Part shown: one piece after another, positions 35,687 to 46,694 of the stretch
How the letters are laid out: each line of letters starts with the position of its first letter
Position numbering within the stretch: position 1 is the stretch's first letter
NCBI GenBank assembly: GCA_040757335.1
Contig: JBFLXB010000011.1
Coordinates: 1-64,000 of the forward strand
Direction: 5' to 3'
DNA length: 64,000 bases
Origin: Nitrospirota bacterium
GTDB taxonomy: Bacteria; Nitrospirota; Nitrospiria; 2-01-FULL-66-17
Notes under the pieces: model-generated
Told to the model about the DNA's origin: nothing
What the model saw: the letters and a program-made list of their open reading frames with translations, nothing else
Database searches by the model: none
Position numbers and translations under genes: made by a program

Positions 35687-36172
35687 TCAGCACTGGGATG
35701 CCGTGACGTTTACGGTCCATATCGCCGTGGCAACGCCAACCGACGCCGTCACCGTGCCATTAACCGAGATATCCTCGGCCGCGCTGCACGCTGGCACGAC
35801 CCATTGGGCGTACACATCCGTTGGTGAAAGCCCCTGATCGTCGGTAGTCGTCTCGAACAGTGTTGCGTCAGCCCCGTTAAGGGCGGTACCTCCCGTCCGA
35901 TCCGACAGCATGAACACCGCCCCGCCGGCGAAGAACCGGATCGTCACACCGGGCACGGGGTTTCCGCTCGCATCAAGCACCTGAAAGGCGAGCGGCGACG
36001 CGGTCCCGTCGGTCCCCCCCCCGCTGTTGCTGTACGTCACCGTCAGATCTCCGGGCGCCGAAATCGTTGCCCCTTGCGGAGTGGTCTCGTCACCGCACGA
36101 TGAGAGCGAAAGGGCCGCCAGACTCAGCACCAGGAGACCGGCCACCCGCTTGGCTGTCGAAATCGTGTTCAC
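35687..36172 (-). CDS. Lipoprotein with a bacterial Ig-like (Big_1) domain
   Basis: 161 residues. Signal peptide and lipobox SLSSC precede an invasin-type Ig fold: PLAFQVLDASGNPVPGVTIRF, then TDDQGLSPTDVYAQWV and a C-terminal NGTVTASVGVATAIWTVNV. Cysteines in VVPACSAA and at the C-terminus may form a disulfide. The GTG start overlaps the aroKB stop as GTGA, with GAGGAGG upstream, so it is co-translated with that gene although unrelated in function. Confidence 0.8.
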   Translation of the reverse strand: MNTISTAKRVAGLLVLSLAALSLSSCGDETTPQGATISAPGDLTVTYSNSGGGTDGTASPLAFQVLDASGNPVPGVTIRFFAGGAVFMLSDRTGGTALNGADATLFETTTDDQGLSPTDVYAQWVVPACSAAEDISVNGTVTASVGVATAIWTVNVTASQC

Positions 36173-37842
36173 AGCGAACCTCCTCTGCGTGCGTTGCGCG
36201 TGCGATGGGTAAGCTTAGCACGCCGCGTGTCCTTGGCAACCAGTGCAGCCCGCCACATTCCGATAATGTCTTTCTCCACCACCGGCTCGACGGTCACACG
36301 GCCGATCTCCCTCGGCAAAACGAAGTGCACCCGCCCCTCCCGGACTTTTTTGTCCAGGCGCACGGTCTGGATCGCCCGCGCCGCGGTGATCTTGGGCAGC
36401 ACGGTCGGAAGCCCCAGGCGTTCCAACAATGTCCGTTGTCGACGCACGACCATCTGGTCGCAGAAATTCAGTTGGGCGGCCAACCGGGCCGCGAAATCCA
36501 TTCCGATGGCCACCGCTTCGCCGTGGCGGATCGTGGAGTATCCCGTGAGCGTCTCGACCACGTGTCCTGCCGTGTGGCCGTAATTCAAGATTCTCCGCAG
36601 CCCGGTCTCCCGTTCGTCCTGCCGCACCACGTCCGCTTTCACGGCCGCCGAACGGCGGACCACCTCCACGAGTACATCGGGCACGCCGCCCAGGATCGAC
36701 TCCGCGTGTTCTTCGAGATAGGAAAAAAATGGCGCGTCGGCGATCACCCCGTATTTGACGACCTCCGCCAGTCCCGCCACCAGCTCCCGGCGCGGCAGCG
36801 TGCGTAACGTCGCCACGTCTGCGTACACCATGATGGGATGATGGAACGCTCCGATCAGGTTCTTGCCCCTCGGGTGGTCGACGCCGGTCTTCCCGCCGAT
36901 GCTCGAGTCGACTTGGGCCACCACGGTCGTAGGCACCTGGACGTAGCGGACGCCGCGGAGATACGTGGCCGCCACAAAACCGGTGAGGTCACCGATGACG
37001 CCGCCTCCGAGCGCGACCAGGATGTCGCCCCGTTCGAATCGTCGCCGCACGAGTTCGTCGTACACTCGGCTGGCGGTCGGAAGGGTCTTGTACCGTTCGC
37101 CATCCGGAATGGTGACGACGGTGGGACGGAACCCCGCCCGGCTGAGACTGGCAGCCACCCGCCCCGCGTAGGCTTTGCCCACGCGGGGGTTGGTGATCAT
37201 CGCCACGGTACAGGCGCGCGTGTGGGCGGCCAGGCGCTCGCCCAGCCGATCGAGCGTGTCCCACCCGATGTGGACGTCGTATTTCGAGGCCCCCGCGTCG
37301 ACTGAGATAACGCCGGATGCCGGCTGAAGGCGCGCCACGATCGCGGACGTCACCTCCTCCACGGTTTGATCCGATGTATCGATGTGAATGAGCGCTTCGC
37401 GGTAATAGGGCTCGCGCTGGACCAGCAGACTCGCGAGCACGTCCGCTTGTCGATCAGCCCCCAACAGGGGCCGGTCGGTCGCTTCGTTGATCCGCGCGGC
37501 CGCTACGTCAGGTTTGGTCTTGAGCCAGATCGTCAAGCCCGCGCGCCGGAGTCGGGCACGGTTGCGAGCATCCATCACCGCGCCGCCCCCGGTGGCGATG
37601 ACCAGGCGCCGGCCGCTCACGACCCGGCCGATCGCCCGGCGCTCCAGCGCCCGAAATCTCGGCTCGCCATATCGATGGAAGATCTGTGCGACCGACAAGC
37701 GGGCGGCGCGCTCAACCAGAGCGTCGGTATCCACGAACGCCATCCCGAGACGTTTGGCGAGCCGGCGTCCCACGCTGGACTTCCCGGAGCCCATCGACCC
37801 GACCAAGACGATGTTCTCTCCCGCTTGCGGCACGCCGGTCAC
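36169..37842 (-). CDS. aroKB: Fused shikimate kinase / 3-dehydroquinate synthase
   Basis: 557 residues in one continuous frame. Residues about 1-170 are AroK: P-loop GSMGSGKSSVGRRLA, FVDTDALVE and ATGGGAVMDARNR. Residues about 190-557 are AroB: IPDGERYKTLPTASRVYDEL, GGGVIGDLTGFVAATYLRGV, DSSIGGKTGVDHPRGKNLIGAF and LNYGHTAGHVVETLTGYSTIRHGEAV, with its metal ligands present. AroB makes 3-dehydroquinate and AroK phosphorylates shikimate. The GTG start overlaps the pilQ stop (GTGA). The separate genes are neighbours in many bacteria; here they are one protein. Confidence 0.93.
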   Translation of the reverse strand: MTGVPQAGENIVLVGSMGSGKSSVGRRLAKRLGMAFVDTDALVERAARLSVAQIFHRYGEPRFRALERRAIGRVVSGRRLVIATGGGAVMDARNRARLRRAGLTIWLKTKPDVAAARINEATDRPLLGADRQADVLASLLVQREPYYREALIHIDTSDQTVEEVTSAIVARLQPASGVISVDAGASKYDVHIGWDTLDRLGERLAAHTRACTVAMITNPRVGKAYAGRVAASLSRAGFRPTVVTIPDGERYKTLPTASRVYDELVRRRFERGDILVALGGGVIGDLTGFVAATYLRGVRYVQVPTTVVAQVDSSIGGKTGVDHPRGKNLIGAFHHPIMVYADVATLRTLPRRELVAGLAEVVKYGVIADAPFFSYLEEHAESILGGVPDVLVEVVRRSAAVKADVVRQDERETGLRRILNYGHTAGHVVETLTGYSTIRHGEAVAIGMDFAARLAAQLNFCDQMVVRRQRTLLERLGLPTVLPKITAARAIQTVRLDKKVREGRVHFVLPREIGRVTVEPVVEKDIIGMWRAALVAKDTRRAKLTHRTRNARRGGSL

Positions 37843-40115
37843 ACACGTTTGACGATCGTCGGGGTGATGAAAATCAACAACTCCTGGTTGGACGTGCTGG
37901 CGCTCTCGCGTTTGAACAACCACCCGATCACGGGCACCTTGTAGAACCACGGCACGCCGGTGATCGACTCACTCTTGGACGTTTCAAAAATCCCGCCGAT
38001 GACCGTGGTTTCGCCGTCCAGGACCATCACTTCGGTCGAGGCCTCGCGTTTGCTGATGCTGGGCGCGCCGGTCCGCGAGCTGGTGAAACTCCCGATCGCG
38101 TTCTTGGTCGCTTTGATCTTCATGATCACGCTGCCGTTCGGCGTGATATGCGGAGTGACGGTTAGATTCAAGGTGGCGTCGACAAACTGCGTCTGGGTGC
38201 CGTTGTTCGAGGTGGTCTCGTAGGGAATCGAGTCCCCCTGCTGAATAATGGCCTCCTTGTTGTCGATCGTCACCACGCGGGGGCTGGAAATGATCTTCGT
38301 TTCACCCAAGACTTCGCCGGCCGACAACCGAAGATCCAGATTGAAGGGATTGACCCCGGTCAGTCGCCCGAACTGCACCCCGACGTTTCCGATCGGACCG
38401 GCGCCGCCGGAGGCCGGCAGGTTCACCGCAAACGTCGGGGACTGGGTATTAAACGCCCCGGTTGCGCCGGCGTTCAAGGCGATCTGATTCGAGCCGGAAG
38501 TCTCCTTAGTGGCCAGGCCCCATTGCACCCCGAGGTCGCGCGCAAAATTGGTGTTGGCCTGGACGATCCGGGTTTCGATCAAGACCTGGGGCTTGGGAAG
38601 ATCCAGCAGCTTAATGAGCTGTTGGATCTCGTTGATGTTCATCTGGATGTCCTTGGCGATGAGACTATTCGTCGACTCGTTGACCGTCAGCTCGCCGCGC
38701 GAACTCAGGTTTTTCTTGAGCGTGGTGGACAGGTCCGCAGCCTTGGCGTAGTTGACCGGAATGATCAGGGTCTTGAGGTCCTCGGCTTTGACCTGGGCTT
38801 CCTTCGCCTTGGCCGCCTCGTCCTGCTGCTTGGCAATGTTGCCGTTGGTGTCGATCCGGATAATGTTCCCCTCCCGGACCTGACCCAGTCCTTTCGACTT
38901 CAGAATGATGTCGAGCGCCTGATCCCAGGGGACGTTGAATAGCTTCAACGTAATCTTGCCTTTCACTTCTTCCCCGACCACGAGGTTCAAATCGCTGACG
39001 TCGGCGATCAGACGCAGGACGTTGGAAACCTCCGCATCTTGAAAATCCAGGGAGATCTTTTGTCCGCTGAACCCGTTGGCCCCGAGCGTCAGTGGGCCCG
39101 GGGGCTCGACTTCCAGCGTGGGCGGCGACGATCCTGAAGTTGCTGCCTCATTCCCGGACGCTTTGGGAGCGGGCAGTGGCACGGCGACCGCGGCCACCGG
39201 CGCGTCGGACTCCGCTTTCGGCGGCGCAGCGGCTGCGGCGGGAGCCTGCGGCATGGCCGGCGCCTCGGACGGCGCGGCGCGGGTCAGACGCAGCGTTACC
39301 CCCTGGTCTTGAGGCAACACGGTGTACGAAACGGCTTTCTTCAGGTCCAAGACCACGCGTACCTTCAGCGGATCCCGGTGCTGGCCGATTCGCGCTTGAG
39401 TCACCAACGTATTGGCTTCAGCCTTGACCACCGAGGGAGTGACCGCGCTGCGCGTCTCCGGGAGGTCGATGACCAACCGGCCCTGGCCGAGCGTGAACAC
39501 GTTGGGTGAGGCCAAGACTCCGTCGGCGGCGATGTTCACGTCCACGAAAGTCTTCTGTGGGACAATGCTCACCGCGGTGATCTGAGACGCGACGGCAGGA
39601 GGCGCCGGAACAGGAGGCTCGGCGAGTTCAACCTGCGGTTCCTCGGGCGCGACCTCTTGCGCGACCGGCGGCGCAACCAGGGTGGCGGCCGGCGGGGCTT
39701 TTGCAAAGTCCACGGCGAGCATCGTGCCCCCGTCGTCGCGGGAAATTTGATAGTCGGCGGCCCGCGACAGCAGGATCGTCAACCGACCGATGCGCTGATC
39801 CTCTCCAGCTTGCTGGGGCACGATGTCCGTCACGGGATCCACACTCACGTTGCGCTGTTCGGCGAACGCGCCGAAATTCGTCGCCATCAGCTCGACGATC
39901 AGTTGCGGCGGCTCATCCAGCCGGAACGCCGTGTAATTGAGGGGACCATCGCCGGTGAGCGCGATCCGCGTCACGTCCGGAAGATCCTCCACTCGAAGGT
40001 CCGTAACGGTGGTCGAGGGGGGGGGCTCGGCCGGAGGGGCGACCTGCGTACTCGGCGCCGCGCACGCGGCCAACATTACGACGCACAGGTGGATGACGAA
40101 CGACTTCGACCTCAT
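37839..40115 (-). CDS. pilQ: Type IV pilus secretin PilQ
   Basis: 758 residues. Signal peptide with a lipobox-like MLAAC (Cys18). Two AMIN domains follow (about 35-125 and 170-260, for peptidoglycan binding), then a Pro/Ala linker and an STN/secretin N0 region (ISLDFQDAEVSNVLRLIADV). Next is a NolW-like N1 domain, then the secretin core ending in TVIGGIFETSKSESITGVPW and NQELLIFITPTIVKRV. It forms the outer-membrane ring through which the pilus passes. The ATG overlaps the pilP stop as ATGA. Confidence 0.96.
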   Translation of the reverse strand: MRSKSFVIHLCVVMLAACAAPSTQVAPPAEPPPSTTVTDLRVEDLPDVTRIALTGDGPLNYTAFRLDEPPQLIVELMATNFGAFAEQRNVSVDPVTDIVPQQAGEDQRIGRLTILLSRAADYQISRDDGGTMLAVDFAKAPPAATLVAPPVAQEVAPEEPQVELAEPPVPAPPAVASQITAVSIVPQKTFVDVNIAADGVLASPNVFTLGQGRLVIDLPETRSAVTPSVVKAEANTLVTQARIGQHRDPLKVRVVLDLKKAVSYTVLPQDQGVTLRLTRAAPSEAPAMPQAPAAAAAPPKAESDAPVAAVAVPLPAPKASGNEAATSGSSPPTLEVEPPGPLTLGANGFSGQKISLDFQDAEVSNVLRLIADVSDLNLVVGEEVKGKITLKLFNVPWDQALDIILKSKGLGQVREGNIIRIDTNGNIAKQQDEAAKAKEAQVKAEDLKTLIIPVNYAKAADLSTTLKKNLSSRGELTVNESTNSLIAKDIQMNINEIQQLIKLLDLPKPQVLIETRIVQANTNFARDLGVQWGLATKETSGSNQIALNAGATGAFNTQSPTFAVNLPASGGAGPIGNVGVQFGRLTGVNPFNLDLRLSAGEVLGETKIISSPRVVTIDNKEAIIQQGDSIPYETTSNNGTQTQFVDATLNLTVTPHITPNGSVIMKIKATKNAIGSFTSSRTGAPSISKREASTEVMVLDGETTVIGGIFETSKSESITGVPWFYKVPVIGWLFKRESASTSNQELLIFITPTIVKRV

Positions 40116-43213: not shown

Positions 43214-43243
43214 TAAGTATACTTAGTATGGTCATCCTGTCAA
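43214..43243 (-). promoter_or_regulatory. Promoter and palindromic operator of HTH-pilMNOPQ
   Basis: Minus strand: TTGACA (43238-43243), 16-nt spacer, TATACT (43216-43221), both near consensus. A perfect 12-bp palindrome, TAAGTATACTTA (43214-43225), covers the -10 box. The -35 box overlaps the TGA stop of the phosphatase/PFK fusion gene (43240-43242). The HTH gene ATG is about 50 nt downstream. Confidence 0.75.
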
Positions 43244-45618
43244 GGAGATTTCGAGGACCGGGGTGCGGAGGCCGGAAGCGCCGAGGGCCTGTTGAGGCCC
43301 TGCTCGGGTCTCATGACGGGAGAGGCCGTTCCGTGCATCCTCGCAAACACGGCCCAGTCGAAGGGTTTGGGCGCGACGGCGTGCAGCGGGATCGCGTCGA
43401 CCTGGCCCTCTCCTGGCGAAGCGGCCAGACACCCGACGATGGCCGCAGGGTCCTCCACCAATCGCCGCACCGTTTCGTACGCCAGGAACTGGGCGAGCGC
43501 CTTGTCTTCCGGAACAGGCGGCGCGCCACGCAGCGTGTGTCCCAAGATCGTGGCTTTGGTCGCAACACTGAGGGGATATCGCTCCGACGTCACTTGGAGC
43601 TGCGGCCACTCGGCGATGGTTCGAGCGACGTAGTCGACCAAACCCTGCACCCCGCCGTCCGGGTGATGGCGGTGCGGCGTGCGCTCGGCCACCACGAAGA
43701 GATGACTCTTGTTGGGCACACCGAGACTGCGACGTAGCGTGCCCAGGATCACGTCGTCGATATACGCATCGGGCTCCGGATGCTCGTTGACCAGAATGCC
43801 TTCGGCCCGCGCCTGATACGCACAAGTCAGCGCCAAGTGCCCGGCTCCCGCACCCATCACCTCCACGAAGAAGATGCTGCCCATGGCGGCGCTGGTCGCC
43901 TTGAGCGACTCGAGGGATTGATTGGCCAGCGCGACCGCGGAGTGAAACCCCAGCGACGTGGTGCGGGCCAGGTTATTGTCGATGGTGCCGGGCATCCCGA
44001 CCACCTGAACCCCGAACCCTTCGAACAACGCCCGCGCGCCGCGCAGGCTCCCATCGCCGCCGATCACGACCAACGCGCCGTCCTTCACGAACGGCTCCAG
44101 GTGCGCCATCGCGACGCGTTGTACCCGCTCGTCTTTGAACTCTTCGAAGCGGCTGCTCCCGATCGGGCTGCTCGCGTGGCTGGCCAACCCGCGCGTGGCC
44201 TGTTCGGTGACGGGCTCGATCCAGTTGTTCGCCAATCCCAAAAACCCGTGGCGGACGAACCGCACCGCCAGCCCGTACTCATCGCCGCTCGCTCGCAGCT
44301 CCTTAAGCGCCGCGCCGGCTCCGGCAAAGTCCCCGCCCGACACCAGCGCGACCAGTTGTTTGATCCGGCCCGGCGCCAGCGTGACGCGGTCGCGGCGTTC
44401 GCGCTCCACGGTCGCCCACACATCGCGCGCCGCCCGTTCGTGGGCGGAGAGACCGACCGCGGTCGAGTAACCCGACAACTCGCCATGCTCGCAGGTCAGC
44501 AACACGACATTGTCCTGTCCCTCCTTGTACTCGCCGAACTCGGCGAAGGCCTCGCGAAACGGGCGGGGGTCGAGATAGGTGATCAACGCGCGCAGCGTAG
44601 AGCTGTGGGTATACAGGCAGGCCACGCCCCCCTGGTGCGCGAGGCCGAGGCGATGAATGCCGTCGATCACGTCCAGGTACAGATCGAAGAACGAGTGACC
44701 GCCGGGATAGCTATACAACGGATGTTTGATCAGTCGTTTGGCAATTTTCACCTCCACCCCCAATGCCCGCGCCGCCTCTTCGACCTCCACGGCTTTTTCC
44801 ACGCCCGTCGCCCATCCGAAATCCTGCGATTCCAACGAGGCATCCACGCTCGCCACGTCCTTGGTCTGTGGACCCAGGACGGCCCGGACCCGCTCGAACA
44901 GTTGGGTGGTGTTGGGACTCGAGCTCACGTAGTGGACAAAGGTCGCGGGATCGAGGTAATTGGGGAGCCGCAGGAAGTCCAGCTGCCGGCCGACCACACC
45001 CAGCATTTGGGCCATGGCTCGGCCCACCGCGTCCGCCTTCAACAGGCCCCGGTCCGGGTCCAAGGTGTTGGCGAGCCTCCTTCCCACGCGGTATGTGCCG
45101 CTCTCCACCCGCGACACGCCGTGGCGCAGCGCAAACAGGAGCGCACGATCGGCCAGGTCCCGCGGCAACAACCAGAAGCGATCCTCACCCAAGTCCAACA
45201 CGATGCGCTCGCCGATCAACTGCGGGGTGAGCTGCGCGCGGGGGACGATGGCCACCGGACGGCGGCGAAGGGGTTTCGTGGTCCTGCCGATCGGCGCACG
45301 CAGCAGCGGCGACAGGGCGCCCTCGGCCAGCGCGCGATTCCAAGCCGCGTAGAAGACCAAGGGATCGTCCCCACACGCGGTTTCGATCAGTGCCTCCCGC
45401 GCCGCTCGATAGGAGGCGGCGTCTGGCGTTCCGGTCTTGAGACGGTCCACGAACTCCTTCACCGCGCCGACCGCTGTGCTGGCCCGCGCCACACGATCGG
45501 TGGCAACCGGAGGCGCCTCAGGCCGAGTCACTCCGTCCACGGTAGATTCCCGGCGGGCCAAGGCTTCGCCGTATGCCACGAGTCCCTCGATGGTCACGAA
45601 GTTCAGGTCGTCAGTCAT
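43240..45618 (-). CDS. Histidine phosphatase / phosphofructokinase-A fusion
   Basis: 792 residues. Residues about 155-400 carry histidine-phosphatase features: LRHG (H166), GGHSFFDLYLDVIDG, and the second His in ACLYTHSSTLRALITYL (H338). Residues about 420-745 are PFK-A-like: SGGDFAGAG, the Arg in GSSRFEEF, IGGDGSLRGA, MPGTIDNN and VEVMGAGAGHLAL. By eye against E. coli PfkA, Arg72, Asp103 and Asp127 are kept, but Arg162 and Arg243, which hold the F6P phosphate, align with Ser and Lys, Asp129 with Asn and Arg171 with Ala. Substrate is therefore open. The N-terminal 150 residues are unassigned. ATG at 45618 has AGGTGG upstream; GTG at 45627 is possible. Confidence 0.75.
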   Translation of the reverse strand: MTDDLNFVTIEGLVAYGEALARRESTVDGVTRPEAPPVATDRVARASTAVGAVKEFVDRLKTGTPDAASYRAAREALIETACGDDPLVFYAAWNRALAEGALSPLLRAPIGRTTKPLRRRPVAIVPRAQLTPQLIGERIVLDLGEDRFWLLPRDLADRALLFALRHGVSRVESGTYRVGRRLANTLDPDRGLLKADAVGRAMAQMLGVVGRQLDFLRLPNYLDPATFVHYVSSSPNTTQLFERVRAVLGPQTKDVASVDASLESQDFGWATGVEKAVEVEEAARALGVEVKIAKRLIKHPLYSYPGGHSFFDLYLDVIDGIHRLGLAHQGGVACLYTHSSTLRALITYLDPRPFREAFAEFGEYKEGQDNVVLLTCEHGELSGYSTAVGLSAHERAARDVWATVERERRDRVTLAPGRIKQLVALVSGGDFAGAGAALKELRASGDEYGLAVRFVRHGFLGLANNWIEPVTEQATRGLASHASSPIGSSRFEEFKDERVQRVAMAHLEPFVKDGALVVIGGDGSLRGARALFEGFGVQVVGMPGTIDNNLARTTSLGFHSAVALANQSLESLKATSAAMGSIFFVEVMGAGAGHLALTCAYQARAEGILVNEHPEPDAYIDDVILGTLRRSLGVPNKSHLFVVAERTPHRHHPDGGVQGLVDYVARTIAEWPQLQVTSERYPLSVATKATILGHTLRGAPPVPEDKALAQFLAYETVRRLVEDPAAIVGCLAASPGEGQVDAIPLHAVAPKPFDWAVFARMHGTASPVMRPEQGLNRPSALPASAPRSSKSP

Positions 45619-45665
45619 CGATGCCACCTACTCGTTCGTGTGACTCCGATTCGCAAGAGATCCCG

Positions 45666-46694
45666 TCAGACCGACTTCACCAACGCGACGACGGTGTGCA
45701 GTCCCGAGGTTCCGCGCGGGTACGCCCGTGCGGCGGTCTCCACCTGGCGCGTCCCGTCCCGCCCCTCCGCCCGCACCACCAGCGTATGAGCGCCGGGAGA
45801 CGGCACGCGCCACTCGTAGGTCCAGTGAGTCCAGGCATAGGGCGGCGACGGTGACAGCGTCGCGTCATGCCATGTCAGGCCGTTGTCCGCACTCACCTCC
45901 ACGCGCCTGATCCCGTGCAGCCCCCCGAACGCGATGCCGCGGATCTCCTGGGTTGCGCCGGTCACCACCTGATAGTGTCCCGGTCGGTCGATACGGGACG
46001 TGACCGGGATCAGGCCCTCGTCGGTCCAGCCGCGTTCCTGCCAATACCCCTTGTGGTCGCGCTCGGCCACCTCGATCTCAGTCAACCATTTCACGTTCTT
46101 GATCCCGAAGATGCCCGGTACCACCGCCCGCAGGGGGTAGCCGTGGTCTCGCGGCAACGACACCCCGTTCATCGAGTGCGCCAACAACACGTCGCCGCGC
46201 AGGGCGCGCTCGAAGGTGATGCTGTCGTGGTAACCGTCCGCGCCTCGAAACACCACGTCAACGGCCGTGTCCAGTGGCCTGGCCTCTTCGAGCAGATGCG
46301 CCAACGGAAAACCGGCCCAGAGCGCGTTGCTGATCAAGCTCCCTCCCGGTTCATTGTCGATACACTGCAGGGTGACCACCTGGTCGACCGAGCGCTGTTC
46401 GAGCACGTCGGCGTATCGCAGGGTCCGGGGTCGCTCCACCGCGCCGTGGAGCGCGAGCGCCCAGTCCGCCACACGAATCGTTGAACCCAGTTCCAGGGAG
46501 TGGTCGCTGTAGTTGACGCGATAGAACTGATCGTTCGGCGTGAGAAACGGCGTCTCGCGAGGCGGCACCGAAAACAGCCGGCCCCAAAAAAACACCCCGG
46601 CTTCAACGGGGCTCGTCACGCTCACCACGGCCCCTGCCGCGGTCGCCGCCAGCAGACGGCGCCGGCTGAACGGGCGCGACATTCGAAGGATCAT
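45666..46694 (-). CDS. Tat-exported sulfite-oxidase-fold molybdoenzyme
   Basis: 342 residues. Tat-type signal SRRRLLAATAAGAVVSV. The Moco domain has NDQFYRVNYS, the molybdenum-ligand Cys111 in TLQCIDNEPGG, and LPRDHGYPLRAVVPGIFGIKNVKWL. A C-terminal Mo-co dimerisation domain follows (GLHGIRRVEVSADNGLTWHDA, TYEWRVPSPGAHTLVVRA). It resembles SorA and related periplasmic oxidases; sulfite is likely but unproven. The cytochrome c gene immediately upstream suggests a SorAB-like pair. Start ATG at 46694; 46682 is possible. Confidence 0.85.
   Translation of the reverse strand: MILRMSRPFSRRRLLAATAAGAVVSVTSPVEAGVFFWGRLFSVPPRETPFLTPNDQFYRVNYSDHSLELGSTIRVADWALALHGAVERPRTLRYADVLEQRSVDQVVTLQCIDNEPGGSLISNALWAGFPLAHLLEEARPLDTAVDVVFRGADGYHDSITFERALRGDVLLAHSMNGVSLPRDHGYPLRAVVPGIFGIKNVKWLTEIEVAERDHKGYWQERGWTDEGLIPVTSRIDRPGHYQVVTGATQEIRGIAFGGLHGIRRVEVSADNGLTWHDATLSPSPPYAWTHWTYEWRVPSPGAHTLVVRAEGRDGTRQVETAARAYPRGTSGLHTVVALVKSV

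Follow-up and report, generated by a model that had tools for sequence, protein, structure and literature searches.

What does a protein do that joins a histidine-phosphatase fold to a phosphofructokinase (PFK), and do both halves still work as enzymes? The question is raised by a gene on the minus strand (43240..45618, stop included) of the window, the stretch of 64,000 nucleotides of Nitrospirota contig JBFLXB010000011.1 that was analysed. The gene is a single intact ORF encoding 792 amino acids, with its ATG at 45618 and an AGGTGG stretch resembling a ribosome-binding site just upstream; the program-called ORF opens three codons earlier, at a GTG. An open frame of 669 codons lies antisense to it (43780-45789, plus strand) and is probably a by-product of high GC content. 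Residues 1-122 (45253..45618, minus strand, as are all parts of the gene) form a mostly helical region, delimited by the AlphaFold2 model, the Pfam scan, conservation and dN/dS; it matched no known family in the Pfam scan and is the least conserved part of the protein. Residues 123-155 (45154..45252) form a beta hairpin, seen in the AlphaFold2 model and conserved, which precedes the phosphatase core. The histidine-phosphatase (branch 1) fold covers residues 156-390 (44449..45153) and contains R165-H166-G167, N236, S264 and H338. The PFK-A domain covers residues 419-745 (43384..44364), as placed by Pfam and residue alignment. The original prediction had proposed a histidine phosphatase joined to a divergent PFK-A, with the kinase of the PFK-1 fold and the domain order reversed relative to PFK-2/FBPase-2. 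This was borne out: both folds were detected in the one ORF, and the PF00365 domain is C-terminal.

The window protein alone gave only a weak match to His_Phos_1 (E 0.03-0.1, under the Pfam cut-off). Across the fusion family, 45 of the 46 members matched, with a best E of 7.2e-8. When the full-length model was searched with Foldseek, the best 50 matches were all PFKs, and the N-terminal part was therefore modelled alone. The AlphaFold2 model of residues 1-415, built from a 46-sequence alignment, had a pLDDT of 85 and a pTM of 0.87. Its Foldseek matches were histidine phosphatases and phosphoglycerate mutases, including PhoE, CobC and TIGAR, with a target TM of 0.76 and an E of 6e-7 for PhoE (1h2e). 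The fold was thus present at about residues 156-390, within the region 155-400 where it had been expected. R165, H166, G167 and H338 are invariant in the 46 members, and the earlier assignment of H166 and His 338 as phosphatase residues was correct. Two further changes had escaped the original prediction: in the alignment, all members compared have Asn236 for the second catalytic Arg and Ser264 for the acid Glu. In addition, the Glu of the PGGES segment is replaced by His or Asn. This alignment included E. coli GpmA, YtjC and CobC and two phosphatases of the window genome, and three alignment modes agreed; hhalign profile comparisons against single phosphatases gave no useful information, and the multiple alignment was used instead. 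Both the second Arg and the Glu belong to the residues listed as catalytic for the superfamily, as with Arg57 and Glu82 in Rv2135c (PMC3866925). Because two of the four usual catalytic residues are gone, phosphatase activity cannot be assumed. Judged from the alignment, Glu/Asp263 and Asp266 might stand in for the missing acid, and the domain may be a ligand-binding domain or a slow phosphatase. PFKFB2 was its top sequence match among solved structures, at a non-significant E of 0.43. By sequence the domain thus shows no specific tie to FBPase-2, and its structural matches are branch-1 phosphatases and mutases in general.

The PF00365 match covered residues 424-718 (E 4.6e-53, 180.8 bits against a cut-off of 30.9). 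The domain scored under the curated cut-offs of all NCBIfam PFK models, for example 167.7 against 371.35 for TIGR02482. Residues were compared in 33 fusion members and 21 standalone PFKs of the same class, using E. coli PfkA numbering. Gly11, Arg72, Asp103, Gly104, Asp127, Met169, Gly170, Glu222, His249 and Arg252 were kept in all 33 fusion members, and Thr125 was Thr or Ser. Arg171 was Ala and Arg243 was Lys in every member, Arg162 was Ser apart from one Thr and one Asn, and Asp129 was Asn in 32 of the 33. The standalone PFKs had Arg162 and Asp129 in all cases and Arg171 and Arg243 in most. In the window protein, the kept residues are R490 (Arg72), D522 (Asp103) and D547 (Asp127), and the changed residues are S581 (Arg162), A590 (Arg171), K688 (Arg243) and N549 (Asp129). 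The retention of Arg72, Asp103 and Asp127 and the changes of Arg162 to Ser, Arg243 to Lys, Asp129 to Asn and MGR to MGA, all read from this one protein by the original prediction, hold family-wide. A His-rich loop specific to the family follows Glu222, with a conserved ERTPHRHHP-GG stretch (residues 645-656 in the window protein). The full-length model is poor over much of residues 575-660. In the PFK tree, the stem of the fusion clade carried 5.2 changes per column, compared with about 0.1-0.3 inside it. A long stem followed by tight conservation is as expected when a function changes and is then held under constraint. The tree grouped the fusion PFK with E. coli PfkA, a placement that is unsafe given the program's long-branch warning. 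The standard PfkA of the window genome (L001:1435-2463; G000:C1:110395) has Thr for Asp103 (GGTGS) and ASTIDND for PGTIDND and keeps all Arg of the fructose 6-phosphate (F6P) site, the reverse of the fusion protein; position 103 of the standard PfkA is Asn or Glu in several relatives within the class.

With the family profile, 97 full-length fusions and three in fragments were found in 396 Nitrospirota genomes. All of the genomes that carry the fusion belong to the window's class, Nitrospiria, by their record lineages. The sampled genomes elsewhere in Nitrospirota had plain PFKs only, and no stand-alone N-terminal part was seen in Nitrospirota. The fusion was carried by 33 of 58 near relatives, one frame-shifted copy included. 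This distribution indicates that the fusion is an old, class-wide feature which has been lost in some lineages. A scan of genome contigs with exact 8-residue patterns, a method of limited reach beyond Nitrospirota, gave 55 fusion loci that were 58-79% identical and nearly all Nitrospirota by record titles; the one labelled Nitrosospira is most likely a misnamed Nitrospira. The plasmid search returned plain PFKs only. Where it could be computed for related pairs, dN/dS was 0.04-0.11 in the phosphatase and PFK domains. For the helical N-terminus, the values were about 0.09-0.30. Purifying selection on each of the two main domains is strong. The broken copies in Manganitrophus (L055:9278; G050:C1:3678950) were considered as a natural two-gene split and rejected, as they are one G short in a run of G, a probable base-call error. 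The other apparent split of the gene was a masked stretch. Many species, including that of the window, have a standard PFK in the same genome as the fusion. Three near-complete genomes of the Nitrospira family (G043, G054 and G057) encode no PF00365 protein besides the fusion. We also considered a hetero-oligomer in which a standard PFK lends Arg162 and Arg243; it is unlikely as a general rule, since these three genomes lack any such partner. PF00365 proteins are absent altogether from several relatives, which implies that PFK itself is dispensable in Nitrospiria.

A pyruvate kinase gene (pyk) lies within 750 bp of the fusion gene at 50 loci (18 tandem, 29 divergent and 3 convergent), a count made from a table in which a few loci may share a species. 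The neighbouring pyruvate kinases fall into two groups, about 37-39% and at least 62% identical to the reference. The variety of orientation and group implies that the two genes stayed neighbours, or became neighbours again, as the region was rearranged, and this speaks for a shared role. The frequent adjacency outside the window's family ties the fusion to glycolysis. In the window's own family, the fusion gene lies between a molybdopterin oxidoreductase gene and pilMNOPQ, and pyk is elsewhere. Downstream of pilMNOPQ, a 593-aa ORF (36169-37950, minus strand) was identified by eye from its translation as AroK-AroB, an apparent fusion of shikimate kinase and 3-dehydroquinate synthase. A barnase-like ribonuclease gene and a barstar gene each adjoin the fusion in 19 Nitrospira loci (for example L033:10419-10877 and L038:6571-7125, with similar Nitrospira loci). 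Class I FBPase was present in 57 of the 58 relatives, with two copies in the window genome, and the idea that the fusion fills in for a missing FBPase was rejected on this count. At G000:C2:33868-35069, a gene for a 220-aa histidine phosphatase is immediately followed, on the same strand, by a class I FBPase gene.

The analysis established the fusion, both folds, the invariant substitutions, the selection, the phylogenetic spread and the pyk linkage. Starting from these, we tentatively favour, at somewhat less than even confidence, a kinase that uses ATP, has an altered sugar site and is gated by a phosphatase-fold domain that binds a ligand and is possibly inactive. The protein would be a Nitrospiria-specific descendant of an ATP-type phosphofructokinase, with a rebuilt sugar-phosphate site, joined to a histidine-phosphatase-fold domain minus half of its catalytic set. 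By sequence, the two sites have changed in parallel, each keeping its catalytic core residues and losing Arg that grip phosphate. The PFK domain would still move phosphate from MgATP via Asp127, and the acceptor may be a different sugar or sugar phosphate from F6P, or F6P itself at low affinity. The phosphatase-fold domain would bind a phosphorylated metabolite without efficient turnover and would gate the kinase. The whole protein would serve alongside pyruvate kinase as a component of a switch between glycolysis and gluconeogenesis. The gated kinase is consistent with the invariant ATP/Mg and catalytic residues beside three replaced Arg of the sugar-phosphate site, the family-specific loop, the long PFK stem and low dN/dS in both domains, N236 and S264 in every member beside invariant R165, H166 and H338, pyk adjacency at 50 loci and the nearly universal class I FBPase. 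Against it, the invariance of the nucleophile His is no less compatible with an active phosphatase than with a sensor, residue 263 (E or D) and D266 might take the place of the lost acid, the fusion could be the working PFK of the three genomes that have no other, and pyk is not adjacent in the window's own family. The earlier suggestion of another substrate or a regulatory role is supported; the analogy with PFK-2/FBPase-2 that came with it is weakened, as no specific tie to FBPase-2 was found. In broader terms, it is possible, if rather doubtful, that the protein is a bifunctional or ligand-gated sugar kinase which produces or detects a phosphosugar with a regulatory role and determines which way glycolysis runs in nitrite-oxidising autotrophs and related bacteria. 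We regard with similar reserve the proposal that such a kinase arose independently of PFK-2/FBPase-2, its phosphatase-fold domain being a sensor or an opposing activity.

The same conserved residues can be read as a two-way enzyme, in which a single phosphorylated sugar, serving as a signal or cycle intermediate, is formed by the PFK domain and removed by the phosphatase domain. We consider this unlikely, and it is likewise improbable that such an enzyme is the bacterial counterpart of PFK-2/FBPase-2 with another kinase fold. In its favour, a kinase fold and a phosphatase fold are joined and each is conserved, the RHG motif and the second His never vary, and the linkage to pyk is glycolytic. 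However, no member keeps the second Arg or the acid Glu, and the sequence has no specific tie to FBPase-2. Bacteria are not known to signal through fructose-2,6-bisphosphate. Small histidine phosphatases can hydrolyse fructose 1,6-bisphosphate (FBP), for example GPM2 of M. tuberculosis (PMC4535450), which favours a two-way enzyme. The protein could also be a normal ATP-dependent 6-phosphofructokinase that gained a domain and binds F6P less tightly, with its catalytic residues kept, pyk adjoining in many genomes and no other PFK-family protein in some near-complete ones. A pfkA gene beside a pyruvate kinase gene is common in some other bacteria. We nevertheless judge an ordinary PFK improbable, as all three Arg of the sugar-phosphate and transition-state site are changed in every member, a standard PFK is present in the same genome in many species, that of the window included, and the relatives that have no PF00365 protein make PFK dispensable in the class. 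Least probable is a scaffold or sensor made from two former enzymes, for although phosphate-binding Arg are invariantly lost from both active sites, the invariance of D103, D127, H166 and H338 would not be typical of enzymes that are fully dead.

In the open-access papers searched, no description of the fusion protein was found. Few enzymes have been studied as thoroughly as PFK, yet no mention of a phosphatase-fold fusion turned up when a recent review of its superfamily was searched by terms (PMC12203962). Overall, the data suggest an enzyme or regulator linked to glycolysis, of a kind not described before, and conserved across many families of the class that holds the main nitrite oxidisers and the complete ammonia oxidisers. 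If the fusion controls the sugar-phosphate node, it would represent a separate evolutionary route to the role of eukaryotic PFK-2/FBPase-2. It also calls for caution in annotation, as automatic naming would yield 6-phosphofructokinase although key residues for the F6P phosphate are gone.

Compared with bacterial PfkA (E. coli, G. stearothermophilus), the fusion shares the fold, the ATP site, Asp127, Glu222, His249, Arg252 and Arg72. It differs in having Ser for Arg162, Ala for Arg171, Lys for Arg243, Asn for Asp129, the His-rich loop after Glu222 and an extra N-terminal part of 415 residues; most of the effector-site residues checked are not kept, but E187 is. With the branch-1 phosphatases (PhoE, CobC, dPGM, TIGAR) it shares the fold, the RHG nucleophile motif, the second His and the PGG-x-S segment. 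Unlike them, it has Asn for the second Arg, Ser for the acid Glu and His or Asn in PGGES, and the domain is tied to a kinase and a helical N-terminal region. Eukaryotic PFK-2/FBPase-2 (PFKFB) also combines a kinase and a histidine-phosphatase fold in one chain. However, the fusion's kinase has an unrelated fold (PF00365, not the P-loop PFK-2 domain), the domain order is opposite, the phosphatase catalytic set is incomplete and the sequence similarity is not significant. Yeast PFK subunits likewise carry an N-terminal domain derived from gene fusion, glyoxalase-like according to the superfamily review (PMC12203962); there the added fold is another one, and the PFK is eukaryotic and tandem-duplicated.
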